The notes under the pieces are model-generated. The model ran no database searches, was not told the DNA's origin, and saw nothing but the letters and a program-made list of their open reading frames with translations. A DNA stretch of 64,000 nt from Collimonas humicola. Lineage in GTDB: Bacteria; Pseudomonadota; Gammaproteobacteria; Burkholderiales; Burkholderiaceae_D. Shown here piece after piece: positions 9,688-57,237 of the stretch. The translations under genes and the position numbers were made by a program. Location: the NCBI RefSeq assembly GCF_018304945.1, contig NZ_JAGQEE010000010.1, forward strand, positions 62,001-126,000, in the 5' to 3' direction. The number at the start of each line of letters is the position of its first letter. The first letter of the stretch is position 1.

Positions 9688-10194
9688 CTACTGCGGCTGC
9701 AGCTGCATCGCCATTTCATGCCAGGCCATGCCGCCATGGCCGGACTCCGACGCCTTGAGGTAGGTGAAGCCGAGGTTTTCGTAGAGCGCCACATGGCGCT
9801 CTTTGCACATCAGGTGGATGCTCGATTTGCGCAGGGCGCGCATGCGGGCGATGAATTCCTTCATCAGCTGCCTGGCAATGCCGCGTCCCTGGAAATCCGG
9901 ATGCACCACCACCGACATGATCACCACATGCGGTCCGTCCGGGTCGTGGCCGATCAGTTCCTTGAATGCCTCGTCCGACATCTCGACCTGGAACGCCGCG
10001 CCGCCGTTGATGAAGCCGGCCACCACGCCGTCGATTTCATACACGATGAAACCCTGCGGCCAGGTGGCGATGCGGGTGGCGATCTTTTCTTTCGTGGCGG
10101 CTTCGTCGCCCTCGTAGGAAATCGATTCGATCTGGTAGCAGCGTTCGAGATCGGCGCCGGCGACGAGACGGATCAGGCAGTCGTTTGAAATCAT
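9688..10194 (-). CDS. GNAT family N-acetyltransferase
   Basis: A 168-aa acetyltransferase with the acetyl-CoA binding signature HPDFQGRGIARQLM near residues 100-115, and the CKERHVALYENLGF segment that ends many GNAT domains. The early block IESISYEGDEAA resembles the serotonin N-acetyltransferase-like (AANAT) subfamily, which acetylates small amines or amino groups, but the substrate is unknown. The ATG at 10194 is chosen over one eight codons upstream. It starts only 27 bp after the stop of the Anbu-type gene on the same strand, so it may be the last gene of that operon and modify a product of it. That link is inference. Confidence 0.87.
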   Translation of the reverse strand: MISNDCLIRLVAGADLERCYQIESISYEGDEAATKEKIATRIATWPQGFIVYEIDGVVAGFINGGAAFQVEMSDEAFKELIGHDPDGPHVVIMSVVVHPDFQGRGIARQLMKEFIARMRALRKSSIHLMCKERHVALYENLGFTYLKASESGHGGMAWHEMAMQLQPQ

Positions 10195-10221
10195 GGATGT
10201 GCAGGGGCCTTGCGGCAAGCT

Positions 10222-11097
10222 TCAGGGCTGCTCGTTGCCTTCGGGGCCTTGAGCCAGGGTTTGCAGCGGCACTGGCTGTGCAGGATTGGCGTTGACCACG
10301 GGCGGCGCCAGCACCAGCGCTTCGCTGAGCGAACCCTTGGCCAGCACCACGTTCGGCACAGTGTCGGGATTGGCGTTCCAGACCGGATCGGCGAGGCCGT
10401 TGAACACCGCGGTCAGCTGCTTGCCCCAGTTCTCGTGGATCATCTGGAAGTACTGGTTCTTTTCGTCGATGGTGACGAAGCGGGTCACCGCCAGCGTGCC
10501 GCTGCCGTACAGCAGCAGGTCCAGCGGCAGGCCGACCGAGATGTTGGAGCGCATGGTGGAATCCATCGAGATCAGCGCGCACTTGGCGGCCTGGTCGAGG
10601 GTGGACGCCGGGGTGATCACGCGGTCCAGGATAGGCTTGCCGTACTTCGCCTCGCCGATCTGGAAATAGGTGTTTTCATTTAGCGATTCGATGAAATTGC
10701 CGGCTGCGTAGACCTGGAACAAGCGGCATGCCTCGCCCTTGATCTGGCCGCCGAAGATGATGCCGACGTTGAACTCGATGCCGAATTTTTCCAGCTTCTG
10801 CGCCTCGCGGTCGTACACCACGCGCACCGCTTCACCGACGATCTGCGCCGCTTCGTACATGGTCGCCACGGTCCAGATGGTCTTGCCGGCGGCGTTGACG
10901 TATTCGCCGATGACTTGCTTGATCGATTGCGAAATGGAGAGGTTGCCGGCGGTCATGAACACCATCAAGCGCTCGCCCGGGTTCTCGAATACGCTCATCT
11001 TGCGCGCGGTGGCAACGTGGTCCACTCCGGCATTGGTGCGGGAGTCGGAGAGGAAAACCAGACCGGAGTCCAGGCGCAGTGCGACGCAGTAAGTCAT
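10222..11097 (-). CDS. Anbu-type proteasome homologue (Ntn hydrolase)
   Basis: A 291-aa member of the Anbu (ancestral beta-subunit) family, a self-contained relative of proteasome beta subunits and HslV. Removal of the first Met would expose Thr2 as nucleophile. Asp18 in SDSRT and Lys33 in TARKM fit the Thr/Asp/Lys catalytic set of Ntn peptidases. Family members assemble as ring- or lock-washer-like oligomers in the cytoplasm, and their substrates remain unclear. There is no HslU-like ATPase nearby. Instead it is the fourth gene after ATP-grasp, alpha-E and transglutaminase-like genes, the characteristic Anbu neighbourhood. A 116-bp gap before it could hold its own promoter. Confidence 0.93.
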   Translation of the reverse strand: MTYCVALRLDSGLVFLSDSRTNAGVDHVATARKMSVFENPGERLMVFMTAGNLSISQSIKQVIGEYVNAAGKTIWTVATMYEAAQIVGEAVRVVYDREAQKLEKFGIEFNVGIIFGGQIKGEACRLFQVYAAGNFIESLNENTYFQIGEAKYGKPILDRVITPASTLDQAAKCALISMDSTMRSNISVGLPLDLLLYGSGTLAVTRFVTIDEKNQYFQMIHENWGKQLTAVFNGLADPVWNANPDTVPNVVLAKGSLSEALVLAPPVVNANPAQPVPLQTLAQGPEGNEQP

Positions 11098-11213
11098 GAT
11101 GTCAAAGAAAAATACAAAGTGGAGATTCTACAGGAAGCGGCAGCCGCTGCCCCGCCGCGACGCAGATTTTGTGGTTGAATTTACAACAAACTGTGGCATG
11201 GCGGCGAGCCGTC

Positions 11214-12026
11214 TCATTGTTGCGATGGCAATGCGGAAACATTCACCTGTACGCTCATGGTTTCTTCACCGCCGCCGCGGCGCACGCCACGCACCGGCGC
11301 CGCCGATTCGTAGTCGCGCCCAATTGCCAATCGACAATAATTGTCGCTGGCAAAGCAGGCGTGGGTGACGTCGATGCTGATCCAGCCGGCGAATGCGCCT
11401 TCCTGCACCCAGACGTCGACCCAGGCATGGCTTTCGGCATGGCTGGTATTGCCGGGATCGATATAGCCGGACACGTAGCGCGCGGGAATCCCCAGCGTGT
11501 GGCAGCAGGCCAGGAACAGGTGCGCATGGTCCTGGCACACGCCCTGGCCCAGCGCCAGGGCGTCGTCGGCGCTGCTGGTCACGGCGGTGGAGCCGCTCTG
11601 GTAGGCCACCGCGCTGCAGATCGCCTGCGCCAGGTCGAGCAGCCGCCGGCTGTCGGCGCCTGCCTGCAGATGGCGGTAAGCGAAATCCATGACGGCGGCA
11701 GTGGGCTGAGCCAGCGCCGTCGGCACGGTGAACACCAGCGGCGAAAACTCTCCGGCTTGCGGCAGCCGGCCTTCCTGCAATGGCGTCACCGCCACCGTGC
11801 CTTCCGCGATGATGCGCACCTCGTGGTGCGGCTTGGTGACGGTCAGCATGTGGCTCAGGTTGCCGAAGGCATCGGCGAATGGATGGCGGCTGCCGGAACT
11901 GCTGATATGCCATGCCAAGGTGCGTTGCTGCGCTTCCGCGCGCGGCCACAGCCGCAGCTGCTGAATCGTGTAAGTCAGGGCTGCGGTGTAGTGATAGACG
12001 GTCTCATGGCGGATGGTGAGCAGCAT
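11214..12026 (-). CDS. Transglutaminase-like cysteine protease (cluster A)
   Basis: A 270-aa cytoplasmic protein with an N-terminal bacterial transglutaminase-like domain (about residues 1-85) and a catalytic core. The papain-like triad is intact: Cys164 in GVCQD, His200 in SHAWVDV and Asp219 in SIDVTH. Related bacterial proteins are thought to hydrolyse or form isopeptide bonds rather than crosslink proteins. The ATG at 12026 gives the usual start MLLTIRHET; a TTG four codons earlier is possible. It follows the alpha-E gene by 19 bp and precedes the Anbu-type gene. Confidence 0.92.
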   Translation of the reverse strand: MLLTIRHETVYHYTAALTYTIQQLRLWPRAEAQQRTLAWHISSSGSRHPFADAFGNLSHMLTVTKPHHEVRIIAEGTVAVTPLQEGRLPQAGEFSPLVFTVPTALAQPTAAVMDFAYRHLQAGADSRRLLDLAQAICSAVAYQSGSTAVTSSADDALALGQGVCQDHAHLFLACCHTLGIPARYVSGYIDPGNTSHAESHAWVDVWVQEGAFAGWISIDVTHACFASDNYCRLAIGRDYESAAPVRGVRRGGGEETMSVQVNVSALPSQQ

Positions 12027-12045
12027 CAGGTTGAACAATCGGCCA

Positions 12046-13065
12046 TCAGGTATTGAGGGGCACCAGGAAATCGCGGCTGATGCGATTGCCGAGTTCGAAG
12101 ATGCGCTCGAAGAAGCGGGTCAGGTAATCGTGCAGGCCGGCGTCGAGGATTTCATCCAGGTTGCTGAACTTGAGGTCGGCGTGCAGCTTGCCGGCGAAGC
12201 GTTCGGTGTCGGAGGAAATATCGTTGTGCACATGCTTGAGATTGCCGACCACCTGCTCCATGCAGGACAGCAGCGAGCGCGGCATGTCCGGCCGCAGTAT
12301 CAGCAGGTCGGCCACGCGCGCCGGCGTGATGACGTCGCGATATACCTTGCGGTAGATCTCGAAGCCCGACACCGAGCGCAGGATCGCCGCCCAGTAGTAG
12401 AAATCGATTTGCGGATCGGCGGCGATGGCGTCCTGGTCCTGGCTTTGCTGCTGGCGGATCTGCTGGCTTTGCTGGTGGCCGTTCTGGCCCTTCATGTAGC
12501 TGCTTTCCTTGGCGCCGTGGAATTTGACATCGATGATGCGCGCGGTATTGTCGGCGCGCTCGAGGAAAGTCCCCAGGCGGATGAAGTGGAAAGCCTCGTC
12601 CTTCAGCATGGTGCCGATGGTGACGCCGCGCGACAGATGCGAGCGATGCTTGACCCATTCGAAAAACTCGGCCGGATTCTGTTCCAGCGCGTTGGTCTGC
12701 AGATAGCCTTGCATCTTGATCCAGGTCGCATTCTGGATTTCCCAGGCTTCCGTGGTCAGGGCGCCGCGCACCGCGCGCGCATTCTCGCGCGCCTGCTTCA
12801 GGCAGGAGGCGATTGAGGACGAGTTGCTGGGATCGCGCACCATGAAATCGATCACGTCCTTTTGCGTCAGCACATCGTATTTCTTGTCGTAGGCCTGGGT
12901 CAGCTCGGAAATGCCGAGCACGGCGCGCCAGCCCTTTTCGACATCATCGACCGACTGCGGCAGCAGCCCGGTCTGCACATGCACATCCAGCATGCGCGCG
13001 GTGTTTTCGGCCCGCTCGGTATAGCGGGACATCCAGAACAAATGGTCAGCGGTACGGCTCAGCAT
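12046..13065 (-). CDS. Alpha-E domain protein (DUF403)
   Basis: A 339-aa, almost entirely helical protein of the alpha-E family. It opens with the family signature LSRTADHLFWMSRYTERAEN and repeats it in degenerate form near residue 185 (IRLGTFLERADNTARI), suggesting an internal duplication. Alpha-E domains occur only beside, or fused to, circularly permuted ATP-grasp enzymes and are thought to assist peptide ligation, but no biochemical role is established. A Gln-rich insertion (QQSQQIRQQQSQ, about residues 215-230) separates the two halves. Its start follows the ATP-grasp stop by one base, with GGAG inside the upstream gene, so the two are translationally coupled. Confidence 0.92.
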   Translation of the reverse strand: MLSRTADHLFWMSRYTERAENTARMLDVHVQTGLLPQSVDDVEKGWRAVLGISELTQAYDKKYDVLTQKDVIDFMVRDPSNSSSIASCLKQARENARAVRGALTTEAWEIQNATWIKMQGYLQTNALEQNPAEFFEWVKHRSHLSRGVTIGTMLKDEAFHFIRLGTFLERADNTARIIDVKFHGAKESSYMKGQNGHQQSQQIRQQQSQDQDAIAADPQIDFYYWAAILRSVSGFEIYRKVYRDVITPARVADLLILRPDMPRSLLSCMEQVVGNLKHVHNDISSDTERFAGKLHADLKFSNLDEILDAGLHDYLTRFFERIFELGNRISRDFLVPLNT

Positions 13066-13066
13066 G

Positions 13067-14482
13067 TTATTTCTCCAGAATCCAGGTGTCTTTGGTGCCG
13101 CCGCCTTGGGACGAGTTGACCACCAGCGAGCCTTCCTTGAGGGCGACGCGGGTCAGGCCGCCGCGCACCAGGGAGACGTTCTTGCCGGACAGGACAAACG
13201 GCCGCAGGTCGAGATGGCGTGGCGCGATGCCTGATTCGACATAGGTCGGGCAGGCCGACAGCGCCAGCGTCGGCTGGGAGATATAACCATCCGGCTTGGC
13301 GATCACGCGCTGGCGGAAGTCTTCGATTTCCTGCTTGGTCGAGGCCGGCCCCACCAGCATGCCGTAGCCGCCGGCGCCGTGCACTTCCTTGACCACCAGG
13401 TCCTTGAGATTGTCGAGGGTGTATTGCAGGTCTTCCTTCTTGCGGCACTGGAAGGTCGGCACATTGTTGAGGATAGGGGTTTCCGACAGGTAGAACTTGA
13501 CCATGTCCGGCACGAAGGGATACACCGACTTGTCGTCGGCGACGCCGGTGCCGATGGCGTTCGCCAGCGTCACATTGCCGGCGCGGTACACCGACAGCAG
13601 GCCGGGTACGCCGAGCGAGGAATCGGGACGGAAGGCGAGCGGGTCGAGGTAGTCGTCGTCGATGCGGCGATAGATCACGTCGACCCGCTTGGGGCCGCGC
13701 GTGGTGCGCATGTAGACGTGGTTGTCGTTGACGAACAGATCCTGTCCTTCAACCAGTTCCACGCCCATCTGCTGGGCCAGGAAAGCGTGCTCGAAATAGG
13801 CTGAGTTGTACATGCCCGGCGTCATCACCACCACGGTCGGATCGGTGACGCCGACCGGCGCCACTGAGCGCAGGTTATCCAGCAGCATGTCGGGATAGTG
13901 GTCGACCGGCGCGATCTTGTGGCGCAGGAACAGCTCGGGGAACAGCCGCATCATCATCTTGCGGTTTTCCAGCATGTAGGAAACGCCCGACGGCACCCGC
14001 AGGTTATCTTCCAGCACGTAGAACTCGCCTTCGCCGGCGCGCACGATGTCGACCCCGGCGATGTGCGCGTAGATGTCCGAAGCCACCGAGATGCCTTGCA
14101 TTTCAGGGCGGTACTGGGCATTGCGGAAGATCTGCTCGGCCGGTATCACGCCCGCCTTGACGATGTTCTGCTCATGATAGATATCATGGATGAACATGTT
14201 GAGCGCCTTGACGCGCTGGATCAGGCCGGCTTCGAGCTGCGCCCATTCCTGAGCATGGATGATGCGCGGAATGATGTCGAAGGGGATCAGGCGTTCGGTG
14301 CCGGCATCGTTGCCGTAGACTGCAAAGGTGATGCCGACGCGGCGGAAGATCAGATCGGCTTCGGCGCGTTTGCGCGCAATGGTTTCAGCCGTCTGGGCAT
14401 TGAGCCAATTGGAAAATTCGTTGTAATGCGGACGCACCAACGAGCTGCCATCGGAGTACATTTCATCGAAAAAATTTGCCAT
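13067..14482 (-). CDS. Circularly permuted type 2 ATP-grasp protein (cluster A)
   Basis: A 471-aa predicted peptide ligase of the DUF404/DUF407 group, a circularly permuted ATP-grasp fold expected to join a carboxylate and an amine using ATP. Visible landmarks are YVLEDN (Glu158-Asn160), YRRIDDDYLDP near 271-281, Lys365 followed by the Gly-rich GAGGYG loop (369-374), and the closing GGLTRVALKEGSLVV and QGGGTKDTW blocks. It is the first gene of the minus-strand operon that continues with alpha-E, transglutaminase-like protease and the Anbu homologue. Its substrate is unknown. A second, fused copy is encoded at 20815-23364. Confidence 0.92.
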   Translation of the reverse strand: MANFFDEMYSDGSSLVRPHYNEFSNWLNAQTAETIARKRAEADLIFRRVGITFAVYGNDAGTERLIPFDIIPRIIHAQEWAQLEAGLIQRVKALNMFIHDIYHEQNIVKAGVIPAEQIFRNAQYRPEMQGISVASDIYAHIAGVDIVRAGEGEFYVLEDNLRVPSGVSYMLENRKMMMRLFPELFLRHKIAPVDHYPDMLLDNLRSVAPVGVTDPTVVVMTPGMYNSAYFEHAFLAQQMGVELVEGQDLFVNDNHVYMRTTRGPKRVDVIYRRIDDDYLDPLAFRPDSSLGVPGLLSVYRAGNVTLANAIGTGVADDKSVYPFVPDMVKFYLSETPILNNVPTFQCRKKEDLQYTLDNLKDLVVKEVHGAGGYGMLVGPASTKQEIEDFRQRVIAKPDGYISQPTLALSACPTYVESGIAPRHLDLRPFVLSGKNVSLVRGGLTRVALKEGSLVVNSSQGGGTKDTWILEK

Positions 14483-14750
14483 GATCTTGCTTTGCTGTGG
14501 TTTGATCGGGAACTATCAAGTAGCTATCAAGAAGCGTGCCTGTAGCACGCTATGTATTGACGTTTAAGCATTAACTTATTCAAAGACTAACATGTGGTCT
14601 CGTGTCTTGAACAGGCTTTATTTGCAACAATGCGGCGTCAACTCTTAGCAAATTTTGCATATGTCTGGTGGCGGCCTCCGTCTTGTTTTAGGTGAGAGGT
14701 AGTGCATGCTGCTGCATGGCCTGGTTCGTCAGAGTGCGTTCATATGGCTC
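14483..14750. other. Intergenic region upstream of the cluster A operon
   Basis: These 268 bp are relatively AT-rich and hold no convincing reading frame, hairpin or RNA. They should contain the promoter for the minus-strand ATP-grasp to Anbu operon, but no clear -35/-10 pair was identified by eye. Confidence 0.5.
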
Positions 14751-15185
14751 TCATGCCCATGGCTTGGGCGCCGGGACGGCGCAGGGGCCGGGCATGTCGA
14801 TCGACGTGAATGCTGCCGGGCTAACGATTTCAAGATACTCCATGTCTTCCGAGTAGTCGAATAAAAAATGCACGATACCGGGGCGCTGGTGCACGCAATC
14901 GCCGGCCTTGACCAGGGTTTCCTTGTCTTCGTACATGAAGCGGGCCCAGCCCTTGAGCATGTAGACGATATGGAAATCCGCTTCGTGGCGATGCCAGCCG
15001 GTGCCGACTTCCGGCGCCATGTTGGCCTTCACCAGATGCGCCACCACCTTGCCGCCGGTGGCGGCGGCGATGCCGAGATCGCGGTACAGGAAAAAATCGC
15101 GCAGGCCGCCGGACTGGAATTCGGTGTCGCCTTCGCGGACATGCGAAAACAGATTTGTCGAGCCTGTTTCTTTACCGGTATCCAT
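14751..15185 (-). CDS. Cupin-domain protein
   Basis: A 144-aa single-domain cupin. The metal-binding motif 1 is seen as GTGWHRHEADFHIVYMLKGWARF (two His and a Glu-like ligand), and motif 2 ends near the GIVHFLFDYSED segment. This small beta-barrel fold covers dioxygenases, isomerases and sensor proteins, and nothing in the sequence identifies the substrate. A strong AAAGGAGT ribosome-binding site precedes the ATG. It is followed on the same strand after a short gap by the cluster A genes, but probably is not in that operon because of the 268-bp spacer. Confidence 0.85.
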   Translation of the reverse strand: MDTGKETGSTNLFSHVREGDTEFQSGGLRDFFLYRDLGIAAATGGKVVAHLVKANMAPEVGTGWHRHEADFHIVYMLKGWARFMYEDKETLVKAGDCVHQRPGIVHFLFDYSEDMEYLEIVSPAAFTSIDMPGPCAVPAPKPWA

Positions 15186-15218
15186 CGGACACTCCTTTCA
15201 TGATTCATCAAGGCCAGG

Positions 15219-15872
15219 TCAGAATTCCACATCCAGTTCATTGATATCTTCCGGCTCCAGCTTGGCCGCCTTGATCCATTCCTGCATCTCCGGCATGGCG
15301 ATGATGCGCTTGCAATAGGCGTTGCAGACCGAATCGAGCTTGACGTCGTAGGTGACGAAGCGGGTCGCCACCGGCGCGTACATGGCGTCGGCCATCGAAC
15401 GTTCGCCGAACAGGAAGGGGCCGCCGTAGGTTGCCAGGCACTGTTTCCAGATGGTGGTGATGCGCTTGATGTCGGCCTCGGCGCGCGACCACACCTTGAA
15501 GTCGGGAAAGTGCGCCTTGATGTTCATCGGCAGCGCCGAGCGCAGCGAGCTGAAACCGGAATGCATTTCGCCGCAGATCGAGCGGCAGTGGGCGCGGGCG
15601 GCGCGATCCGCCGGCAGCAGGCCGGCCTTGGGGCGGATCTCGTGCAGGTATTCGCCGATCGCCAGCGTATCCCACACCACGATGTTGCCGTGATACAGGC
15701 AAGGCACCAGGATCGACGACGACAGCAGCAGGATTTCCGCGCGGGCGTCGGGATCGTCCGGCGAGATGATGTTTTCCTGGAATTCCAGGCCGGAAAATCG
15801 GGTCAGCAGCCAGCCGCGCAAGGACCATGACGAATAATTCTTGCTGGTGATGCTCAAGGTGGTTTTAGGCAT
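15219..15872 (-). CDS. Glutathione S-transferase family protein
   Basis: A 217-aa protein with the two-domain GST layout. An N-terminal thioredoxin-like half starts TTLSITSKNYSSWSLRGWLL, where a Ser in the SSWS stretch is the likely glutathione-activating residue. It includes ILVPCLYHGNIVVWDTLAIGEYL, the cis-Pro and Ser/Asp glutathione-binding region. An all-helical C-terminal half carries GPFLFGERSMADAMYAPVATRF with the N-capping box. The exact class is not clear. It lies just upstream of the cupin on the same strand, with a 33-bp gap, so the two may be co-transcribed. It is divergent from phaZ. Confidence 0.88.
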   Translation of the reverse strand: MPKTTLSITSKNYSSWSLRGWLLTRFSGLEFQENIISPDDPDARAEILLLSSSILVPCLYHGNIVVWDTLAIGEYLHEIRPKAGLLPADRAARAHCRSICGEMHSGFSSLRSALPMNIKAHFPDFKVWSRAEADIKRITTIWKQCLATYGGPFLFGERSMADAMYAPVATRFVTYDVKLDSVCNAYCKRIIAMPEMQEWIKAAKLEPEDINELDVEF

Positions 15873-16012
15873 GGCAATATTCTTCCGTAGGGGTCGAAAG
15901 GGATTGGATTGGCAAACCGTTTGTTAATTACCGAGCAAGCACCGTGCCAGAGGTTTGGGCATGGTTATTGCAGCTGAAGGGAATGCCGGCATTCCAATAA
16001 TAGGGTAGTCCC

Positions 16013-17239
16013 ATGACGAAAATTTACCAGGCATATCAGGGCTATGCGGACCTCAGCGACCCCATGCGCATCTTGGCTGGCGCTACTGCACCAATGTTCG
16101 GCGCCAGATGGCCGGGCTGGCCGGAGAGCCTGACGCTGCGCAAGCTGGCGGCGGCCTGCGAAGTGTTTGCATGCACCCAGTTGACGCACCAGCGCCCGGC
16201 ATTCGGGATAAACAGCGCGGAAGAAGGCGGCCGCACAGTTTCGGTGCAAGAAGAGGTGGCCGACCAGACGCCGTTCTGCACCTTGTTGCGTTTCCGCAAG
16301 GAAACCAAAGTTCCGCAACCGCGTATCCTGCTGGTGGCGCCGATGTCGGGCCACTTCGCCACCTTGCTGCGAGGCACTGTCGTCACCCTGTTGCGCGATC
16401 ACGATGTCTACATCACCGACTGGCACAATGCGCGCGATGTCGCCCTCTGCGACGGCCGCTTCGGCTTCGACGAATATGTCGCCCACCTGATCCGCTTCAT
16501 CGAGAAAATCGGCCCCGGCACGCACCTGGTGGCGGTTTGCCAGCCAACCGTGGCGGCGCTGGCGGCGGTCTCGCTGATGGCGGCCGAGCACCATCCGGCG
16601 CAGCCGGCCAGCATGACACTGATGGCCGGTCCGATCGATACCCGCATCAATCCGACCGCGGTCAACGAGTTGGCGAAAAGCAAGCCTATCGCCTGGTTCG
16701 AGAAAAACCTGGTGAGCACCGTTCCGGTCCGCTACGCCGGCAGCCAGCGCCAGGTCTATCCTGGATTTTTGCAGCTGACGGCCTTCATGAACATGAACCT
16801 GGAGCGCCACCTTAAGGCTTTCCAGAACCTGTACAACTACCTGGTCGAAGGGGAGGATGAAAAAGCCAATACCATCAAGACCTTCTATGCCGAGTATTTC
16901 GCCATGTCGGACCTGGCGGCGGAGTTTTATCTGGAAACCGTGCAAAGCGTGTTCCAGGATCATGCGTTGCCGCTTGGCGAAATGCAGGCATTAGGGCGTA
17001 CCATAGACCCGGCAGCGATCCGCCGCACCGCGCTGTTCACGGTCGAAGGAGAGAAGGATGACATCTGCGCGGTGGGGCAGACCGTGGCCGCGCAGGACAT
17101 GTGTAGCGGCATACGGCCGTACATGAAGCTGCACCATGTGCAGACCGGGGTAGGGCATTATGGCGTCTTCAACGGCCGCCGCTGGGACAATGAAATCTAT
17201 CCGCGCCTGCGCGAATTCGTCCACAGCCATGAGCCGTAG
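16013..17239 (+). CDS. phaZ: Intracellular poly(3-hydroxyalkanoate) depolymerase
   Basis: A 408-aa enzyme that mobilises stored PHB granules in the cytoplasm. It lacks a signal peptide, as expected for the intracellular PhaZ1 type. The nucleophile is a cysteine rather than serine, Cys176 in LVAVCQPTVAAL, the known arrangement in the Ralstonia PhaZ1 family. The supporting acid lies in the VEGEKDDICAVGQT region and the histidine in GVGHYGVFNGRRW near the C-terminus. Its presence implies PHA storage in this organism, although no phaC synthase is in the window. It sits between the two peptide-ligase clusters with its own promoter region. Confidence 0.94.
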   Translation: MTKIYQAYQGYADLSDPMRILAGATAPMFGARWPGWPESLTLRKLAAACEVFACTQLTHQRPAFGINSAEEGGRTVSVQEEVADQTPFCTLLRFRKETKVPQPRILLVAPMSGHFATLLRGTVVTLLRDHDVYITDWHNARDVALCDGRFGFDEYVAHLIRFIEKIGPGTHLVAVCQPTVAALAAVSLMAAEHHPAQPASMTLMAGPIDTRINPTAVNELAKSKPIAWFEKNLVSTVPVRYAGSQRQVYPGFLQLTAFMNMNLERHLKAFQNLYNYLVEGEDEKANTIKTFYAEYFAMSDLAAEFYLETVQSVFQDHALPLGEMQALGRTIDPAAIRRTALFTVEGEKDDICAVGQTVAAQDMCSGIRPYMKLHHVQTGVGHYGVFNGRRWDNEIYPRLREFVHSHEP

Positions 17240-17333
17240 AGCGGCAAGGTTTTTTTGTCAGTTCGTTGAATATCCGGCAGCAGAATTTTCCGCTGGCCGA
17301 TTTATTGATTGTTGATTGTCGCAAAGGATAGCC

Positions 17334-20300
17334 ATGTCGATTCACGTTGCACTCAACCATCTCACTACCTACCGCTACGACAAGGCCATCAGCCTCGGCC
17401 CGCAGATCATCCGCCTGCGGCCGGCGCCGCATTGCCGTACCCGGATCCTGAGCTACTCCCTGCGGATCTTGCCGCAGCCGCATTTCATCAACTGGCAGCA
17501 AGACCCGCAGGCCAACTACCTGGCGCGCCTGGTGTTTCCGGAAAAAACCACCGAATTCCAGATCGAGGTCGACCTGGTGGCGGAGATGTCGGTGCTCAAT
17601 CCTTTCGATTTCTTTCTCGAACCGTATGCCGAGAAAGTGCCGTTTTCCTATGCCGCGGAATTGCTCAACGAGCTGGAGCCGTACCGCAAGAAACTGCCGG
17701 TCACGCCGCAGCTGCAAACATTCCTGGATACGGTGCCGCGCGAAAAGATCCGTACTGAAGATTTCCTGGTCAACCTGAACCGGAACCTGGCGCAGCTGAT
17801 CAGCTACACCATCCGCATGGAGCCGGGCGTGCAGACGCCGGAACAGACGCTGGACCTGGGCTCCGGCTCCTGCCGCGATTCCTCCTGGCTGCTGGTGCAG
17901 ATCCTGCGCCACCTGGGGCTGGCGGCGCGCTTCGTTTCCGGCTACCTGATCCAGCTGACGGCGGACCAGAAATCGCTGGATGGCCCCTCCGGAACCGAGG
18001 TCGATTTCACCGACCTGCACGCCTGGTGCGAAGTATATCTACCGGGCGCCGGCTGGATCGGCCTCGATCCGACTTCCGGCTTGCTGGCCGGCGAAGGGCA
18101 CATCCCGCTGTCGTGCACGCCGGAGCCATCGTCGGCGGCGCCGGTGAGCGGCATGGTGGAACAGAGCGAAGTGGAATTCGGCCACGCCATGAGCGTGCGC
18201 CGCATCTGGGAGTCGCCGCGCGTCACCAAGCCTTACAGCGAACAGCAATGGGAGCAGATCGAAGAACTCGGGCATGCCATCGACGACGACCTCGATGCGC
18301 TCGATGTGCGCCTGACCATGGGTGGCGAGCCGACCTTCGTGGCGCTCGATGATCCCGAGGGCGACGAGTGGAACACCGCCGCCATGGGACCCGGCAAGAA
18401 GCCGCTGGCGGCGCAGCTGTATCATCGCTTGCGCCAGCAGTATGCGGCGCAAGGCTTGCCGCATTTCGGCCAGGGCAAATGGTATCCGGGCGAACAGCTG
18501 CCGCGCTGGTCGCTGAATTGCTACTGGCGTCGCGACGGCGAACCGATCTGGAACACGCCTGAGCTGATCGCCGATGAAACAAAAAAGCAGGCCAGCGACG
18601 ACAGCGTTGCCGAGCGCTTCCTGCATAGCGTCGCTGCGCGGCTGACGCTGGAACGGCAAAACGTCTTCGCCGCCTATGAAGACATCTACTATTACTTGTG
18701 GCGCGAACGCCGCCTGGCGATCAATGTCGACCCTTCCGACTCGCGGCTGGACGACAAGCAGGAGCGGGCGCGCCTGGCGCGGGTGTTTTCGCAAGGGTTG
18801 CGCAAGATCGCCGGCTATGTCCTGCCGCTGGCGCGCAGCGCCGACGAGCGCAGCTGGAAAAGCGGCAACTGGTACCTGCGCGGCGACCACTGTTATCTGC
18901 TGCCCGGCGATTCGCCGCTCGGCTATCGCCTGCCGCTCGATTCGCAGCCGTGGGTCAAGGCCGGCGATTATCCCTATGTGCATCAGCCCGATCCGACCCA
19001 GCAGTTCCAGCCGCTGCCGGTAGCGCGCCAGCAGCGCGACAAGCTGGCGCCGGCAAGTAACGCCAAGAGTGCGGCGGCGGCAAGCGATGCGCCGAAATAC
19101 AGCACCGCGTTCAGCAGCGATCCGAATCTTGCCGCCAAGCTCACCAGCATACCGGCGCCCCTGGAATCGGCCGACAAGATCACGCGCACCGCCTTGTGCG
19201 CCGAAGTGCGCAACGGCGTGCTGTATCTGTTCATGCCGCCGCTGGCGCGCCTGGAAGATTACCTGGAACTGGTGGCGGCGATCGAGGCTACCGCCGAAAC
19301 CCTGCAGCAGCCGATGCTGCTGGAAGGCTACGAGCCGCCTAACGATCCGCGCCTGAAGAAATTCAGCGTGACGCCGGATCCGGGCGTGATCGAAGTCAAC
19401 GTCCAGCCGATGCATAGCTGGAGCGAGCTGGTGGCCAACACCAGCTATCTCTACGATGTCGCGCGCGAAACCCGCCTGACCACCGAGAAATTCATGCTCG
19501 ACGGCCACCATTCCGGCACCGGCGGCGGCAATCACTTGGTGCTGGGCGGTGCCACCACCGGCGATTCGCCGTTCCTGCGGCGTCCCGATCTGCTGCGCAG
19601 CCTGATCAGTTACTGGAACAACCATCCGGCGCTGTCGTACCTGTTCTCGGGCATGTTCATCGGCCCCACCTCGCAGGCGCCGCGGGTCGATGAAGCGCGC
19701 AACGATTCGGTGGTGGAATTGGAACTGGCTTTCGCCGAAATGGAAAAGCAGCTGGCCAAGGATAACTGCGCGCCATGGCTGGTGGACCGCCTGCTGCGCA
19801 ATCTGCTGATCGACGTCACCGGCAACACGCATCGCGCTGAATTCTGCATCGATAAACTGTATTCGCCGGACAGCAGCACCGGCCGCCTCGGCCTGCTGGA
19901 ATTGCGCGCCTTTGAAATGCCGCCGCATGCACGCATGAGCCTGACCCAGCAACTGCTGTTGCGGGCGCTGGTGGCGCGCTTCTGGAAGACGCCGTACAAG
20001 CCGCCGCGCCTGGTGCGCTGGGGCACCGAGTTGCACGATCGTTTTCTGCTGCCACATTTCATCTGGCAGGATTTCTGCGACGTCATGGACGATCTGCAGC
20101 AGGCCGGCTATGCCTTCAAGGCGGAATGGTTCGCGCCGCACTTCGAGTTCCGCTTCCCGAAAATCGGCGACTATGCGGTCAACGGCATCGCACTCGAACT
20201 GCGCACGGCGCTTGAGCCATGGCATGTGCTGGGCGAGGAAAACCGCTCCGGCGGCAACGCCCGCTACGTCGATTCCTCGCTGGAACGGGTGCAGGTCAAG

Positions 20301-20693
20301 GTGAGCGGCATGGCGCCGGATCGCTATGTCCTCACCTGCAACGGCGTCGCCGTGCCGCTGCAGCCGACCGGCCGCGTCGGCGAGTTCGTCAGCGGCATCC
20401 GCTACCGCGCCTGGCAGCCGCCGTCGGCCCTGCATCCGACCATCGGCATCGATTCGCCGCTGACCTTCGACCTGGTCGATACCTGGAACAGCCGCAGCCT
20501 GGGCGGTTGCCAGTATCACGTGGTGCATCCGGGCGGACGCAGCTACGATACCTTTCCGGTCAATGCGTTCGAGGCGGAAAGCCGCCGCCTGGGACGTTAT
20601 TTCCGTCTCAACCACACGCCGGGAACGATGCAGGTAAAGCTGCCGATAGCGTCCGTCGAGTTCCCATTTACGTTAGACTTACGTCACTTCTGA
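17334..20693 (+). CDS. Transglutaminase-like protease fused to a DUF2126 amidoligase
   Basis: A 1119-aa two-module protein. Residues 1-290 are a transglutaminase-like domain with N-terminal beta domain and a full triad: Cys180 in GSCRD, His229 in DLHAWCEV, Asp245 in GLDPTSG. From about residue 330 (LTMGGEPTFVALDDPEG) to the end is a DUF2126 domain, annotated in Pfam as a putative amidoligase. One chain may therefore both make and break amide links. The ATG at 17334 is preferred over an upstream TTG because AAAGGA precedes it. It is the first gene of cluster B, followed by the ATP-grasp/alpha-E fusion 121 bp later. Confidence 0.92.
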   Translation: MSIHVALNHLTTYRYDKAISLGPQIIRLRPAPHCRTRILSYSLRILPQPHFINWQQDPQANYLARLVFPEKTTEFQIEVDLVAEMSVLNPFDFFLEPYAEKVPFSYAAELLNELEPYRKKLPVTPQLQTFLDTVPREKIRTEDFLVNLNRNLAQLISYTIRMEPGVQTPEQTLDLGSGSCRDSSWLLVQILRHLGLAARFVSGYLIQLTADQKSLDGPSGTEVDFTDLHAWCEVYLPGAGWIGLDPTSGLLAGEGHIPLSCTPEPSSAAPVSGMVEQSEVEFGHAMSVRRIWESPRVTKPYSEQQWEQIEELGHAIDDDLDALDVRLTMGGEPTFVALDDPEGDEWNTAAMGPGKKPLAAQLYHRLRQQYAAQGLPHFGQGKWYPGEQLPRWSLNCYWRRDGEPIWNTPELIADETKKQASDDSVAERFLHSVAARLTLERQNVFAAYEDIYYYLWRERRLAINVDPSDSRLDDKQERARLARVFSQGLRKIAGYVLPLARSADERSWKSGNWYLRGDHCYLLPGDSPLGYRLPLDSQPWVKAGDYPYVHQPDPTQQFQPLPVARQQRDKLAPASNAKSAAAASDAPKYSTAFSSDPNLAAKLTSIPAPLESADKITRTALCAEVRNGVLYLFMPPLARLEDYLELVAAIEATAETLQQPMLLEGYEPPNDPRLKKFSVTPDPGVIEVNVQPMHSWSELVANTSYLYDVARETRLTTEKFMLDGHHSGTGGGNHLVLGGATTGDSPFLRRPDLLRSLISYWNNHPALSYLFSGMFIGPTSQAPRVDEARNDSVVELELAFAEMEKQLAKDNCAPWLVDRLLRNLLIDVTGNTHRAEFCIDKLYSPDSSTGRLGLLELRAFEMPPHARMSLTQQLLLRALVARFWKTPYKPPRLVRWGTELHDRFLLPHFIWQDFCDVMDDLQQAGYAFKAEWFAPHFEFRFPKIGDYAVNGIALELRTALEPWHVLGEENRSGGNARYVDSSLERVQVKVSGMAPDRYVLTCNGVAVPLQPTGRVGEFVSGIRYRAWQPPSALHPTIGIDSPLTFDLVDTWNSRSLGGCQYHVVHPGGRSYDTFPVNAFEAESRRLGRYFRLNHTPGTMQVKLPIASVEFPFTLDLRHF

Positions 20694-20814
20694 CCAACCT
20701 CGCCATCCGGCGGCCGGTAAAGCTGTAGGGCAACTTGTGCCAAGTTGCCCGCTGGTTTTTCCTGCGCTGCAGCAGGTTGTCTTTAACCACTACAAGTGAC
20801 GCAAGCGATCAACC

Positions 20815-23364
20815 ATGTACCGGCGTTTACTCGAAAGTTATCCTGCTGAGGCCGATCGTTATGACGAAATGCTTGAGGCAGGCGGCCGCCTGCGGCCGCA
20901 TTGGCGGACCCTGATCGACCAGCTGGAAGACCTTTCGCCGGAGGTGCTGCGGCGCCGCGCGCGCGAGGTGCGCGAAGCCATCGCCGCCGATGGCGTGACC
21001 TACAATGTGTATGCCGATCCACAAGGCGCCAACCGGCCCTGGGAACTGGATCTGTTGCCGCAGATCATTTCCGCCGAAGAATGGCAGACCCTGTCCGCCG
21101 CCGTCACCCAGCGCGCGAAACTGCTGAACGCGGTGCTGGCCGATCTCTACGGGCCGCAGTCGCTGCTGTCGGAAGGCTTGCTGCCGCCGGCGCTGGTGTT
21201 CGGCCAGCATGGCTATCTCTGGCCCTGCCGCGGCATCGAGCCGCCCGGCGGCGTCCACCTGCACCTGTATGCGATCGACCTGGCGCGTTCGCCGGATGGC
21301 CACTGGTGGGTCATTTCGGACCGCACCCAGGGTCCCTCGGGCGCCGGCTATGCTCTGCAAAACCGCCAGATCATGTCGCGCGCGATGCCGGACACGGTGC
21401 GCGACATGCATGTCCAGTCGCTGCTGAAATTTTTCCATACCCTGCACAACAGCCTGAGCGAGCTGGCGCCGGCCGGCGGCGAACCGCCGCTGGTGGTGCT
21501 GCTGACGCCGGGGCCGTATAACGAAACCTATTCGGAGCACGCCTTCCTGGCGCATACGCTGGGCTTCCCGCTGGTGGAAGGGGCGGACCTGATGGTGCGC
21601 GGCGACATGGTCTACCTGAAAACCCTGAGCGGCTTGCGCCGGGTGCATGCGATCCTGCGCCGGCTGGACGACGACTATTGCGATCCGCTCGAACTGCGCG
21701 CCGATTCCGCGCTGGGCATTCCGGGCCTGGTGCAGGCGGCGCGCCTGGGCAATGTGCTGATCGCCAATTCGCTCGGCAGCGGCGTGCTGGAATCTGGCGC
21801 CTTGCACGGCTTCCTGCCGGCCATCTGCCAGCGCCTGCTGGGCCAGCCGCTGGCGTTGCCGGCGGTGGCGTCCTGGTGGTGCGGCGAAAAGCCGGCGCTG
21901 GAATATACGCTGGCCAATCTTGAGCAGCTGGTGATCATGCCGGCCTTTCCCTCGATGCGCATGCAGCCGGTCTACGGCCACAGCCTGAACGCGCAGTCGC
22001 GCCAGCGCGTGGTCGACAGCCTGCTGGCTCAGCCGCACGCCTATGTGGCGCAGGAATGGGTGCGCTTGTCGCAGGCGCCGGTCTTGTCGCGCAGCGGCGA
22101 GTATCGCCTGATGAGCCGCGCCGTCAGCCTGCGCGTGTTCGTGGTGGCGGCTGCCGACGGCAGCTATCACGTGATGCCGGGCGGCCTGACGCGGGTGGCG
22201 CCGCGCCAGCGCAAGGATATCGTTTCGATGCAGCAGGGCGGCGCCAGCAAGGATGTCTGGGTGCTGGGGCAGATGCGGCCGGAAGCTGCCGACGGGGCAG
22301 CCGCGCCGGCTGAAAACCAGGACGGCCGGCAGCGTGCCCTGCACATCTCGCTGGACACCATCCGCAGCACGGTCGATATTTCTTCGCATGCCGGCGAAAA
22401 CCTGTTCTGGATGGGCCGCTATGCCGAGCGTTGCGACAACCTGGCGCATCTGCTGCGCGCCACCTTGCAGCGCAGCACCGATCTGCAGGGCGATGCGCGC
22501 GAGAATTTTTATCAGTTGTGCGAGATTTGCCGCGGCCTCGGGATTGCCTTGCCGGCGCTCTCGGCGAGCGGACGGCCAACCATCAGCGCCATGCAGCAAG
22601 CCTTGATCGCGGCGATTGCCGATCCCGCTGCCGCCGCCAGCATCGCCGCCAATCTGCGCCATTTGCATCATTGCGGCTACCAGGTACGCGAACATCTTTC
22701 GCTCGACAATTGGCATGCCATCAACCGCATGCCGGGCCTGGCGGCAGATAGCGGCGGTGTCGGCGGCATGACGCCGGCCTTGGCGCTGCACATGCTCAAC
22801 AATGTGATCCAGGCTTGCGTCGGCCTGGCCGGCCATGCGCTGGACGACACCACGCGCGATGAAGGCTGGCATTTCCTGATGCTGGGACGCCACATAGAAC
22901 GCATGACGCACCTGGCGACCTTGTTCGGCCAGTTCCTGCGACTGCCGGCGGAAGCGCAGAACAAGATCTTGCCGTGGCTGCTGGAGTCGGCCAACAGCGT
23001 CGTCACCTATCGGGTGCGCTACCGGCGCGCGCCGGAGTGGCTGCCGGTCCTGCACCTGCTGGTGTTCGACGCCAGCAATCCGCACGGCATCGCGTTCCAG
23101 TTCCAGATGCTGGAGCGTTACCTGAGCGATATTGCCGGGCAGCTGGGCACGCTGAGCATGGATACGCCGGCGCATCTGTCGGCGCTGCTGCGCGAATTCG
23201 AGTTGCAGGATCTCAGCCACGATTCGCTGTTCGTGGCGGATGCGCATGCGCGCCTGGCGCAACTGATGCGCGATGCGATCACCGGCGCCTTTGCCTTGTC
23301 CGATGAGCTGGCGCGGCATTTTTTCACGCCGCTGAATGCCCCGGTCAGCCAGGGGGTGTCCTGA
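20815..23364 (+). CDS. Circularly permuted ATP-grasp fused to an alpha-E domain (cluster B)
   Basis: An 849-aa fusion of the two activities that are separate genes in cluster A. Residues 1-490 match the ATP-grasp partner, with LRRLDDDYCDPLELR near 281-295, GIPGLVQAARLGNV, and the closing GGLTRVAPRQRKD and QGGASKDVWVLG blocks. From about 520 an alpha-E domain begins (SSHAGENLFWMGRYAERCDNL). The region matching Lys365 and GAGGYG of the cluster A enzyme reads IMPAFPSMRMQPVYG (374-388), so the usual ATP-grasp Lys and Gly-rich loop are not recognisable. The next gene overlaps its stop by one base. Function is inferred only. Confidence 0.9.
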   Translation: MYRRLLESYPAEADRYDEMLEAGGRLRPHWRTLIDQLEDLSPEVLRRRAREVREAIAADGVTYNVYADPQGANRPWELDLLPQIISAEEWQTLSAAVTQRAKLLNAVLADLYGPQSLLSEGLLPPALVFGQHGYLWPCRGIEPPGGVHLHLYAIDLARSPDGHWWVISDRTQGPSGAGYALQNRQIMSRAMPDTVRDMHVQSLLKFFHTLHNSLSELAPAGGEPPLVVLLTPGPYNETYSEHAFLAHTLGFPLVEGADLMVRGDMVYLKTLSGLRRVHAILRRLDDDYCDPLELRADSALGIPGLVQAARLGNVLIANSLGSGVLESGALHGFLPAICQRLLGQPLALPAVASWWCGEKPALEYTLANLEQLVIMPAFPSMRMQPVYGHSLNAQSRQRVVDSLLAQPHAYVAQEWVRLSQAPVLSRSGEYRLMSRAVSLRVFVVAAADGSYHVMPGGLTRVAPRQRKDIVSMQQGGASKDVWVLGQMRPEAADGAAAPAENQDGRQRALHISLDTIRSTVDISSHAGENLFWMGRYAERCDNLAHLLRATLQRSTDLQGDARENFYQLCEICRGLGIALPALSASGRPTISAMQQALIAAIADPAAAASIAANLRHLHHCGYQVREHLSLDNWHAINRMPGLAADSGGVGGMTPALALHMLNNVIQACVGLAGHALDDTTRDEGWHFLMLGRHIERMTHLATLFGQFLRLPAEAQNKILPWLLESANSVVTYRVRYRRAPEWLPVLHLLVFDASNPHGIAFQFQMLERYLSDIAGQLGTLSMDTPAHLSALLREFELQDLSHDSLFVADAHARLAQLMRDAITGAFALSDELARHFFTPLNAPVSQGVS

Positions 23365-24296
23365 TGAGCGAATACGTTTACCACATCCGCCACGATACGC
23401 ATTATGCCTACTCGCAGCCGGTGCGGCTATCGCACCAGATGCTGCGCCTGACGCCGCGTTCGCTGCCATGGCAGACCTGCACTTCGCACGGCATAGCGAT
23501 TGCTCCAGAGCCGCAAAACCTGCGCTTGCTGCTGGATAGCTTCGGCAATCCGATGCAGTCGTTTTCACTGGAAAGCGATCATACCGATCTGCGCGCCATC
23601 GCCGATTCCTGGGTGACCTTGACCCAGCGGCAGTTGTCGCCGCCGACGCCGCCGTGGGAGCTGGCGCGGACCAAGTTGTCTTACCAGGCCGGGCAGTTTT
23701 TATTGCCTGACGACCTGGAGGCGACGCGTTATCTGTTTGAATCGGCGCATGTGCGGATCAAGCGCGAGTTCCTGGCTTACGCGATGGAATCGTTTACCCC
23801 GGGCTTGTCTCTGCTGGACGGCATCCAGGTTCTGATGACGCGGATTTTCCGGGAGTTTACGTTCGATCCTTTGGCCACTACGGTTTCTACGCCAGTGACC
23901 GAGGTGTTTGCTACCCGGCGCGGGGTTTGCCAGGATTTTGCGCATTTCATGTTGTCTTGCCTGCGTTCACTGGGGCTGGCGGCGCGTTATGTCAGCGGTT
24001 ATCTGCTGACCGAGCCGCCGCCGGGGCAGCCGCGCTTGATCGGGGCGGATGCATCGCATGCCTGGGTGTCGGTGTATTGTCCTGGCGTCGATGGGCAGGC
24101 TAGCAGCTGGATCGATGCCGATCCGACCAATGGCATTTTTCCTGACACCAGCCACATCACCTTGGGCTGGGGCCGCGACTTTCTCGATGTCTCGCCCTTG
24201 CGCGGGGTATTGATCGGCGGCGGCCAGCAAACCATGGATGTCGCGGTCACTGTCATGCCGGCGCATGAAGCGCCGGGATTTGGTTTTGCGGTATGA
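23364..24296 (+). CDS. Transglutaminase-like cysteine protease (cluster B)
   Basis: A 310-aa protein with an N-terminal transglutaminase-like beta domain starting EYVYHIRHDTHYAYSQPVRL. The papain-like core has Cys189 in RRGVCQDFAHF, His232 in DASHAWVSVY and Asp253 in DADPTNG. It shares its architecture with the cluster A protease and the N-terminus of the cluster B amidoligase fusion, giving three paralogues within 14 kb. Its ATG overlaps the preceding TGA by one base (TGATG), so it is translationally coupled to the ATP-grasp/alpha-E gene. Codon use shifts slightly toward lower GC in the second half. Confidence 0.92.
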   Translation: MSEYVYHIRHDTHYAYSQPVRLSHQMLRLTPRSLPWQTCTSHGIAIAPEPQNLRLLLDSFGNPMQSFSLESDHTDLRAIADSWVTLTQRQLSPPTPPWELARTKLSYQAGQFLLPDDLEATRYLFESAHVRIKREFLAYAMESFTPGLSLLDGIQVLMTRIFREFTFDPLATTVSTPVTEVFATRRGVCQDFAHFMLSCLRSLGLAARYVSGYLLTEPPPGQPRLIGADASHAWVSVYCPGVDGQASSWIDADPTNGIFPDTSHITLGWGRDFLDVSPLRGVLIGGGQQTMDVAVTVMPAHEAPGFGFAV

Positions 24297-57167: not shown

Positions 57168-57182
57168 TGGCACAGACATTGC
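57168..57182 (+). promoter_or_regulatory. Sigma-54 promoter of pilA
   Basis: TGGCAC-N5-TTGC matches the -24/-12 consensus exactly (GG at 57169-57170, GC at 57181-57182) and places the start of transcription about 45 bp before the pilA ATG. Confidence 0.85.
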
Positions 57183-57237
57183 TGTATATCCCGTGTAGTG
57201 AAGTAGTGAAGCCCCTTTTTATTAACCGGAGAAATAT

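Follow-up and report, generated by a model that had tools for sequence, protein, structure and literature searches.

A divergent Anbu and amidoligase island of Collimonas humicola and its probable link to nitrogen starvation

The question raised by the locus described here is whether two adjoining sets of genes apparently concerned with making and breaking amide bonds, one of which includes the proteasome-like hydrolase Anbu, constitute a single system, and under what conditions such a system would be used. The locus lies in a stretch of 64,000 nucleotides of the Collimonas humicola genome (contig NZ_JAGQEE010000010.1, positions 62,001 to 126,000 of the forward strand), hereafter the window, within which all coordinates are given. 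Cluster A, on the minus strand, contains ATP-grasp, alpha-E and transglutaminase-like genes (AGa, AEa and TGa), followed by that for Anbu; cluster B, on the plus strand, encodes a transglutaminase-like domain fused to DUF2126 (TGd:DUF2126), a fused ATP-grasp and alpha-E protein (AGb:AEb), and a further transglutaminase-like protein (TGb). The two diverge from a shared promoter region between the genes for a glutathione S-transferase-like protein (GST) and a polyhydroxybutyrate (PHB) depolymerase, phaZ. The genes themselves, their catalytic residues, their co-occurrence across genomes, and the conserved promoter and NtrC-type sites are the observations on which this analysis is based, and they suggest that A and B probably form one nitrogen-starvation system, composed of a core from cluster A and an optional module from cluster B, which would act on an amide compound.

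Genes of the two clusters and their ATP-grasp proteins

Open reading frames and family scans define two runs of genes. The minus-strand run (15872 down to 9688) comprises GST, cupin, AGa, AEa, TGa, Anbu and a GNAT acetyltransferase; the plus-strand run (16013 to 24296) comprises phaZ, TGd:DUF2126, AGb:AEb and TGb. The E-values of the domain and structure-chain matches rule out chance similarity. Cluster A is the known four-gene Anbu operon, its order of ATP-grasp, alpha-E, transglutaminase and Anbu being that expected for the family. AGa (13067..14482, minus strand) is a circularly permuted ATP-grasp ligase (Pfam PF14403/PF04174, CP_ATPgrasp_2) in which both the LEDNLR motif and the Gly-rich loop are intact, with PDB 3n6x as its closest solved relative (E 4e-234). 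AEa (12046..13065, minus strand) is a stand-alone alpha-E protein (Pfam PF04168, E 1e-97), the pairs E17-R18 and E169-R170 of which are present in 56/56 sequences, and TGa (11214..12038, minus strand; Pfam Bact_transglu_N and Transglut_core) has a Cys-His-Asp triad, C168/H204/D223, that is invariant across 32/32 aligned sequences. Anbu itself, a proteasome-like N-terminal nucleophile (Ntn) hydrolase (10222..11097, minus strand), scores slightly below the Pfam Proteasome cut-off; its matches to the solved Anbu chains 5loy, 5nyw, 5nyj, 5nyf and 5lox range from E 4e-61 to 2e-83, and M1-T2, D18 and K33, which include the catalytic T2/D18/K33 and correspond to the Asp17/18 and Lys32/33 of the family and to its Thr behind the initial Met, are found in the window's own sequence and in 50/50 related loci.

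Cluster B begins with TGd:DUF2126 (17337..20693, plus strand; the frame is also open from a TTG at 17316), in which a transglutaminase-like domain recognised by Pfam, with a Cys-His-Asp triad (C179/H228/D244) invariant in 36/36 aligned sequences, is fused to a putative amidoligase of the glutamine-synthetase fold. The DUF2126 match spans the full length of Pfam PF09899 (positions 1-826 of 826, 1353 bits). The predicted model of the fusion protein is weak (predicted local distance difference test, pLDDT, 66.6): its top six PDB matches are transglutaminase-type or cysteine-protease chains, followed mainly by glutamate-cysteine ligase and glutamine synthetase, at E-values of at least 0.28. This modelled fold signal is consistent with the Pfam description of a 'putative amidoligase', short of proof. 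There follow AGb:AEb (20815..23364, plus strand), with Pfam CP_ATPgrasp_2 in its N-terminal part and Alpha-E in its C-terminal part, both E-R pairs of the latter being kept except for two D-for-E changes among 33 sequences, and TGb (23364..24296, plus strand; Pfam Bact_transglu_N and Transglut_core), with a Cys-His-Asp triad, C189/H232/D253, invariant in 33/33 aligned sequences. The parts list given in the initial annotation, of two circularly permuted ATP-grasps, two alpha-E domains, three transglutaminases with intact triads, a fused DUF2126 and Anbu, is thus borne out by Pfam, PDB matches and residue alignments.

The same annotation described the clusters as split and fused forms; read as two equal ligase sets, these are not supported by the residues of the two ATP-grasps. 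AGa and AGb share 34% identity. In glutathione synthetases, the E-x-N pair binds metal, as part of the binding of metal and ATP. With matches of ≤400 residues left out, the corresponding E158 and N160 of AGa, along with R162, are kept in 108/108 copies, whereas AGb is without the E-x-N motif in 109/109. At the position of the glutamate, AGb instead has A in 47 copies, S in 46, G in 10, N in 3, T in 2 and R in 1, and at that of the asparagine it has R in 108 and H in the other. Gly371 is kept in 6/109 copies, such that the Gly-rich loop is also altered, and E366 is kept in 0/109. The substitutions are themselves conserved, W taking the place of Q345 and G that of R347 in 109/109 copies, and the fold is retained (Foldseek matches to 3n6x, 1.7e-32, and human glutathione synthetase 2hgs, 1.7e-10; model pLDDT 79.9). 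Judged by these residues, only AGa looks like an active ligase, and because the replacing residues are conserved, AGb is maintained, whether as a partner or with some other chemistry. We infer that AGb:AEb, instead of being a ligase, serves as partner or regulator to AGa-AEa.

Co-occurrence of the clusters and the place of TGa

The distribution of both clusters in related genomes, suggested as a check when the locus was first annotated, was surveyed in a family sample of 195 genomes, in which DUF2126 was present in 66, Anbu in 123 and alpha-E in 135. Anbu and DUF2126 occurred together in 54 genomes, with DUF2126 alone in 12, Anbu alone in 69, and neither in 60, an association above that expected from independence (Fisher p 9e-5, with relatedness ignored). 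In the 54 genomes with both, the two were linked in 33 (gap ≤10.7 kb), separated by >100 kb on one contig in seven, and on different contigs in 14. A stand-alone, A-type alpha-E was present in 66/66 DUF2126 genomes, one of these being partial. A second, named set of 33 genomes, comprising 29 of the 44 that were without AGa in the fetched flank of the B locus and four known to have AGa, contained AGa in 32, at 54-77% identity, the exception being a 2.7-Mb genome; Anbu was found in 18 of them. These counts argue that B depends on the A core, that A does not depend on B, and that Anbu is separable from B. Hence the proposal that the two clusters are related holds in that they belong together beyond a chance pairing, as judged from the alpha-E and AGa counts, the 33/54 linked genomes, and the slot of TGa discussed below; it is not supported in the other direction, A being independent of B in the 69/195 genomes with Anbu only.

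Within the window's genus, ten other genomes share this layout of A and B, Anbu and DUF2126 being 7.0-7.3 kb apart, and GST, cupin and phaZ are all present in 10/10 of these loci; one 1.7-Mb congener has neither cluster. The closest named B loci, those of Herbaspirillum aquaticum and H. frisingense, have the same divergent island, without TGa. Seven Pseudomonas-type genomes (loci L201, L205, L206, L207, L209, L210 and L212) contain B and keep AGa-AEa-TGa, with Anbu absent, and an eighth Pseudomonas-type genome, G210, has two A copies, of which L214 is without Anbu and L213 has it. No replacement protease beside alpha-E in Anbu-less genomes was noticed among the matches listed. In two further genomes (L082 and L086), the neighbour of TGd:DUF2126 is a diverged Anbu of 40-49% identity, which may correspond to the published Anbu-2 type, and there is no AGb:AEb or TGb within the 20-kb stretch.

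The gap between alpha-E and Anbu is occupied by TGa in the window. Seven Anbu genomes without alpha-E on the same contig (two without and five with DUF2126) were dropped from the survey of this gap. In Anbu genomes without DUF2126, it was transglutaminase-sized in 63/67 classifiable genomes, the four exceptions being G044 and G066, which are 68% and 81% complete, G156, and also G043, in which alpha-E is on the other strand. In the 33 genomes with linked B, the gap was transglutaminase-sized in 11, all from the window's genus, left no room in 15, contained B in six, and was divergent in one. In the 21 unlinked genomes, nine had a transglutaminase-sized gap, four had no room, three had a gap of 7.3-7.6 kb (G037, G071 and G087), and five were unclassifiable. 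The single-strand order AGa-AEa-TGd:DUF2126-AGb:AEb-TGb-Anbu is found in G010, G020, G035, G036, G051 and G119. Across 107 A-core loci, a count that left out truncated AGa or AEa, loci with <1.3 kb of room, and L214 as the second copy of one genome, TGa was absent in 54/87 with B in the genome and in 0/20 without B (relatedness not removed). B occupies the place of TGa in many loci, and the window's genus keeps both TGa and B. A strict rule by which B replaces TGa was rejected, as TGa and a linked B coexist in the window, its ten congeners, and L099, L179, L187, L194 and L197, the case of L099 resting on a weak 28% match. Pseudomonas-type A loci with an unlinked B also keep TGa.

These distributions bear directly on whether A and B are instead independent of each other, two systems under common nitrogen regulation that have drifted together. 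Such independence would accord with the genomes that have only one of Anbu and DUF2126, and with the 21/54 genomes holding the two apart; in addition, a tree-based test of whether TGa loss follows B is powerless (median p 0.5): it has 10 changes and six supported independent pairs, linkage differs in ~2.3 of these pairs, and each difference points the way expected. It is nevertheless distinctly improbable, as B was found without the A core in 0/66 genomes by alpha-E and 1/33 by AGa, lies inside operon A in six genomes, and accompanies every absence of TGa in the 107 loci, although 3/67 Anbu-only genomes are also without room for TGa.

Promoter elements and the regulation of counterparts

GST (15219..15872, minus strand; Pfam GST_N_2, above cut-off), the first gene of the A side, and phaZ (16013..17239, plus strand; TIGR01849, 521.6 bits, above cut-off), the first gene of the B side, are separated by a divergent spacer of 140 bp (15873-16012). 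By the criterion of GG-N10-GC with TGGCAY/TTGCW context, this spacer contains two sigma54 boxes: TGGCACGGTGCTTGCT before GST (15934..15949, minus strand), which has 0 mismatches and is one of 2 perfect boxes in the 64 kb, and GGGCATGGTTATTGCA before phaZ (15957..15972, plus strand), which matches 6 of 7 positions plus GG/GC. Island loci from the window, from its ten congeners and from five Herbaspirillum were compared: the full score is reached by the GST box in 16/16, against 0.0016 per shuffled sequence, and the phaZ box scores ≥6 of 7 in 16/16, against 0.0125 per shuffled sequence. Upstream of control genes, boxes scoring ≥6 were found before 0 of 26 panB and 0 of 16 pcnB. Orthologues of GST (≥65% identity) were present in 8 of 32 genomes searched, 8/8 of them beside a divergent phaZ with both boxes present, including four Paraburkholderia with A and B on other contigs; at 22 other, paralogous GST-like loci, no sigma54 box scoring ≥6 preceded the gene. 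Hence the GST/phaZ pair is probably older than the island, with A and B having been joined onto its two sides. The initial suggestion that phaZ and GST may be bystanders is made doubtful by the conserved promoter elements common to both genes and clusters, and from their sequences the two look co-regulated with A and B.

AGa is preceded by a further element, AGGCACGCTTCTTGAT (14526..14541, minus strand), in which the -12 reads GA, not GC. The motif TGGCAYGNTTCTTGNT, with ≤2 mismatches, occurs before AGa in 45/56 loci, against 0.1 expected, and upstream of three control genes in 0/26, 0/16 and 0/36. Its -24 half is conserved, its -12 half is mostly TTGAT or TTGTT, and GG-N10-GC scoring ≥6 precedes AGa in 12/56 loci; the element is sigma54-like, not canonical. 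Before TGd, a GGTATGAATCNTGCT-like element was identified by eye in 7/9 aligned loci of other genera.

The window's genome encodes NtrC, above the NCBIfam cut-off, and the half-sites of this regulator follow the consensus GCAC-N7-GTGC. This pattern is found ≤400 bp upstream of AGa in 24/108 loci, against 1.8 expected, with the stricter GCACC-N5-GGTGC in 11 of 108, against 0.13 expected; it is also found ≤400 bp upstream of TGd in 14/114 loci, against 2.2 expected. Controls were at chance (AEa 1/104, with 1.8 expected; panB 0/25; pcnB 0/16), and the whole 64 kb has 4 NtrC-type palindromes against 2.7 expected, a number in line with chance. One of these four, GCACAGTTTCGGTGC, lies inside phaZ (16233..16247, plus strand), 284 bp upstream of the GST box. 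Here GCAC-N7-GTGC is kept in 16/16 island copies; over the first 330 bases of the alignment, 0/6 GST-linked phaZ of other genera and 0/13 phaZ paralogues contain it. This conservation is suggestive of an NtrC site, short of proof, and because the site is kept in all 15 relatives, it slightly strengthens the case for a single nitrogen-starvation system.

Published work on other bacteria provides the NtrC dependence, the nitrogen induction, and the ATP turnover by a relative of AGa that may, by analogy, apply to the island. In excerpts of a study of Burkholderia cenocepacia H111 (PMC5491218), an ntrC mutant has log2 changes of -6.6 for phaZ (I35_4672), -5.3 for GST (I35_4673), and -8.2, -9.4, -9.4 and -6.0 for I35_5080-83, which are annotated as DUF404/DUF407, DUF403, transglutaminase-like and large transglutaminase-like; I35_4672-73 and I35_5080-83 are there named common sigma54/NtrC targets. 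In the excerpted text of PMC7801951, nitrogen limitation of wild-type Pseudomonas putida raises PP_2686, 2687 and 2688 by 12.6-, 11.0- and 14.7-fold, and earlier work is cited in which the P. putida Anbu gene was induced. A passage of PMC12316311 includes Anbu (COG3484) in a list of genes that are associated with sigma54 and enriched in Proteobacteria, and in Yersinia, phosphate is liberated from ATP by the ATP-grasp that the Anbu operon encodes (PMC6376114).

A number of results weigh against one nitrogen-starvation system under sigma54 control. Firstly, in the promoters, most copies of the AGa element, that of the window among them, have A or T instead of the sigma54 C, and the five Herbaspirillum loci are without the element, such that A there would be left to the GST promoter. 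A weak terminator-like hairpin and T run lie at the end of phaZ (17233-17245, plus strand; the stretch has 5 sites of this kind, shuffled sequence 3.4), meaning that read-through from the phaZ promoter into B is not assured. Secondly, neither the GST/phaZ spacer of the window nor the 400 bp preceding its AGa has an NtrC-type site, and the phaZ-internal site is partly codon-forced: synonymous resampling yields it in 21-54% of draws per copy, across the 15/16 copies covered, the sixteenth having its site outside the resampled codons. Thirdly, the excerpts of PMC7801951 report that an rpoN mutant still induces PP_2686, 2687 and 2688 by 14.2-, 16.0- and 19.6-fold, which speaks against strict sigma54 control in P. 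putida, and that the Anbu gene PP_2685 is nearly flat (1.12 in the wild type, 1.45 in the rpoN mutant). Fourthly, no genera other than the window's own and Herbaspirillum were seen to have the complete island, and B and Anbu are separable, with 12/66 DUF2126 genomes and 15/33 of the second set being without Anbu. Finally, PMC5666114 favours a protein-degrading Anbu and opposes the peptide-synthesis proposal.

Several smaller features were also seen around these promoters. A perfect 16-bp palindrome, GGAATGCCGGCATTCC (15980-15995), stands between the phaZ sigma54 box and phaZ; it is whole in the window and L064, and most other congeners have just the right half. In the congeners L061 and L069, an insertion of ~260 bp, with inverted-repeat ends identified by eye, separates GST from its sigma54 box, which is then 327 bp away; both boxes are intact. 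On a Burkholderiaceae metagenome contig (L180:54-3700), phaZ, cupin and GST diverge from cluster B and follow a different gene order, a further sign that phaZ, cupin, GST and B belong together. The other perfect sigma54 box of the 64 kb (57168-57183, plus strand) precedes, by 54 bases, a gene for a type IV pilin (57238-57711; Pfam Pilin and N_methyl).

Possible amide chemistry, its rivals and known systems

If A and B are indeed one nitrogen-starvation system, they would be expressed as two divergent transcription units from the 140-bp spacer with its back-to-back sigma54 promoters: a minus unit of GST-cupin-AGa-AEa-TGa-Anbu, with the sigma54-like element of its own before AGa, and a plus unit of phaZ-TGd:DUF2126-AGb:AEb-TGb. 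The A core of AGa and AEa would form an amide bond using ATP; TGa, TGd and TGb would hydrolyse or transfer amide groups via their Cys-His-Asp centres; and Anbu would hydrolyse one product. B would be an add-on to this core, contributing DUF2126 as a second, glutamine-synthetase-type amidoligase and two more transglutaminase-like enzymes, with AGb:AEb perhaps steering AGa-AEa. A shortage of nitrogen would activate the set through NtrC and sigma54, and an amide- or peptide-bound nitrogen compound would be built, rebuilt or broken, with PHB mobilised for carbon meanwhile. The chemistry, the partner role of AGb, the read-through of both units, and this purpose are what we infer from the island. 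A bolder version, a two-ligase amide cycle of nitrogen starvation in which AGa works only when complexed with alpha-E, the conserved but catalytically dead AGb:AEb redirects or controls that complex towards the DUF2126 product, and the transglutaminases and Anbu close the cycle, is a speculation that has little likelihood of being correct in full; if it were, Anbu would not be a general protease but would hydrolyse an amide tag, either non-ribosomal or linked to protein.

The same regulation could instead serve scavenging by ligation, in which the ligases glutamylate or amidate an amine or degraded peptide, from which the transglutaminases and Anbu release nitrogen. Gamma-glutamylation routes of this kind exist for polyamines and methylamine. 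The printed nitrogen regulation of the counterparts would suit such a role, as would the naming of AGa's nearest solved relative, 3n6x, as a putative glutathionylspermidine synthase and the inclusion of glutathione synthetase in the fold class of AGb, and the abundance of these domains correlates with that of urea-metabolism domains in marine metagenomes (PMC3597751). Yet the name of 3n6x is a deposit label, not a tested function, and among the genes recurring in the mapped loci, for which the queries were the window's genes only, there was no transporter, oxidase or dehydrogenase. Scavenging is a tentative and rather doubtful alternative.

Alternatively, the ATP-grasp, DUF2126, or both might attach a peptide or amino acid to proteins, for the transglutaminases to edit and Anbu to degrade or trim, resembling the Pup-proteasome system. 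Pupylation ligases belong to the glutamine-synthetase superfamily, of which DUF2126 has a weak fold signal, and Anbu has proteasome-like catalytic residues; hence, by fold, and only weakly for DUF2126, an amidoligase and a proteasome-like hydrolase are common to both systems. Proposals of a tagging or deubiquitinase-like role are also quoted in PMC6376114. However, Pup (PF05639) has no match in the window's genome, whereas the control genome of Corynebacterium glutamicum matched, and a Pup-type system was accordingly considered and dropped. Nor is there an unfoldase among the ten scanned proteins, and Anbu has been described in published structure work as an open split ring. Anbu showed no peptidase activity on standard substrates, and no complex of the operon proteins was detected (PMC6376114). 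With DUF2126 also occurring in genomes that have no Anbu, protein tagging is unlikely.

The single nitrogen-starvation system that remains the probable reading is assembled from known modules. Cluster A has the same four genes, order, catalytic Thr/Asp/Lys and close PDB relatives as the Anbu operon (P. putida PP_2685-2688; Anbu of Yersinia bercovieri and P. aeruginosa), from which the window differs in its preceding cupin and GST, and in cluster B across the shared divergent promoter region. Iyer et al. 2009 reportedly described amidoligase neighbourhoods of transglutaminase, DUF2126, circularly permuted ATP-grasp and alpha-E; as known via citing papers, these have the same domain set as A and B. 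The NtrC/sigma54 regulon of H111 has the same kinds of gene, alike by annotation, under one regulator, but in the excerpts of PMC5491218 the locus numbers of the phaZ/GST pair are far from those of the transglutaminase cluster, whereas the two adjoin in the window. The rlo and rim systems likewise pair a ligase with a hydrolase, as ATP-grasp with aspartic peptidase, and rlo also has a transglutaminase-type protein; by the descriptions excerpted from PMC12239564, they differ in that RloB is inactive and membrane-bound, and the peptidase is retropepsin-like. Caulobacter hvyA and the inactive transglutaminases of Pseudomonas and Shewanella were set apart as other systems, by description only.

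Hence the Anbu operon, the nitrogen regulation of its counterparts and the DUF2126 family are already in print. For the union with GST/phaZ, the dependence of B on the A core, the replacement of TGa and the degenerate ATP-grasp, no report was found among the papers listed, a scope outside which Iyer et al. 2009 falls, such that prior mention there is possible. The modules are known; their union, the dependence and the degenerate subunit appear to be new. Through this locus, Anbu and its operon become connected with a second module of the amidoligase kind, with the mobilisation of PHB, and with promoters of the nitrogen-starvation type, thereby naming in advance a growth condition, partner genes, and the ATP-grasp likely to be active. 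What appeared to be a duplicated ligase pair becomes, by its residues, one putatively active ligase and one conserved degenerate partner, and the locus suggests where and when to look for the role of this relative of the proteasome.

Two further genes complete the minus-strand run. The GNAT acetyltransferase (9688..10218, minus strand; identified by Pfam), initially listed as a possible member, is a poor candidate: it was rejected as a conserved component after matching in only 2/10 congeneric loci, and is probably outside the system. The cupin protein encoded between GST and AGa (14751..15185, minus strand; Pfam PF07883) adjoins AGa or GST in L061-L073, L075, L090, L121, L158 and L180.

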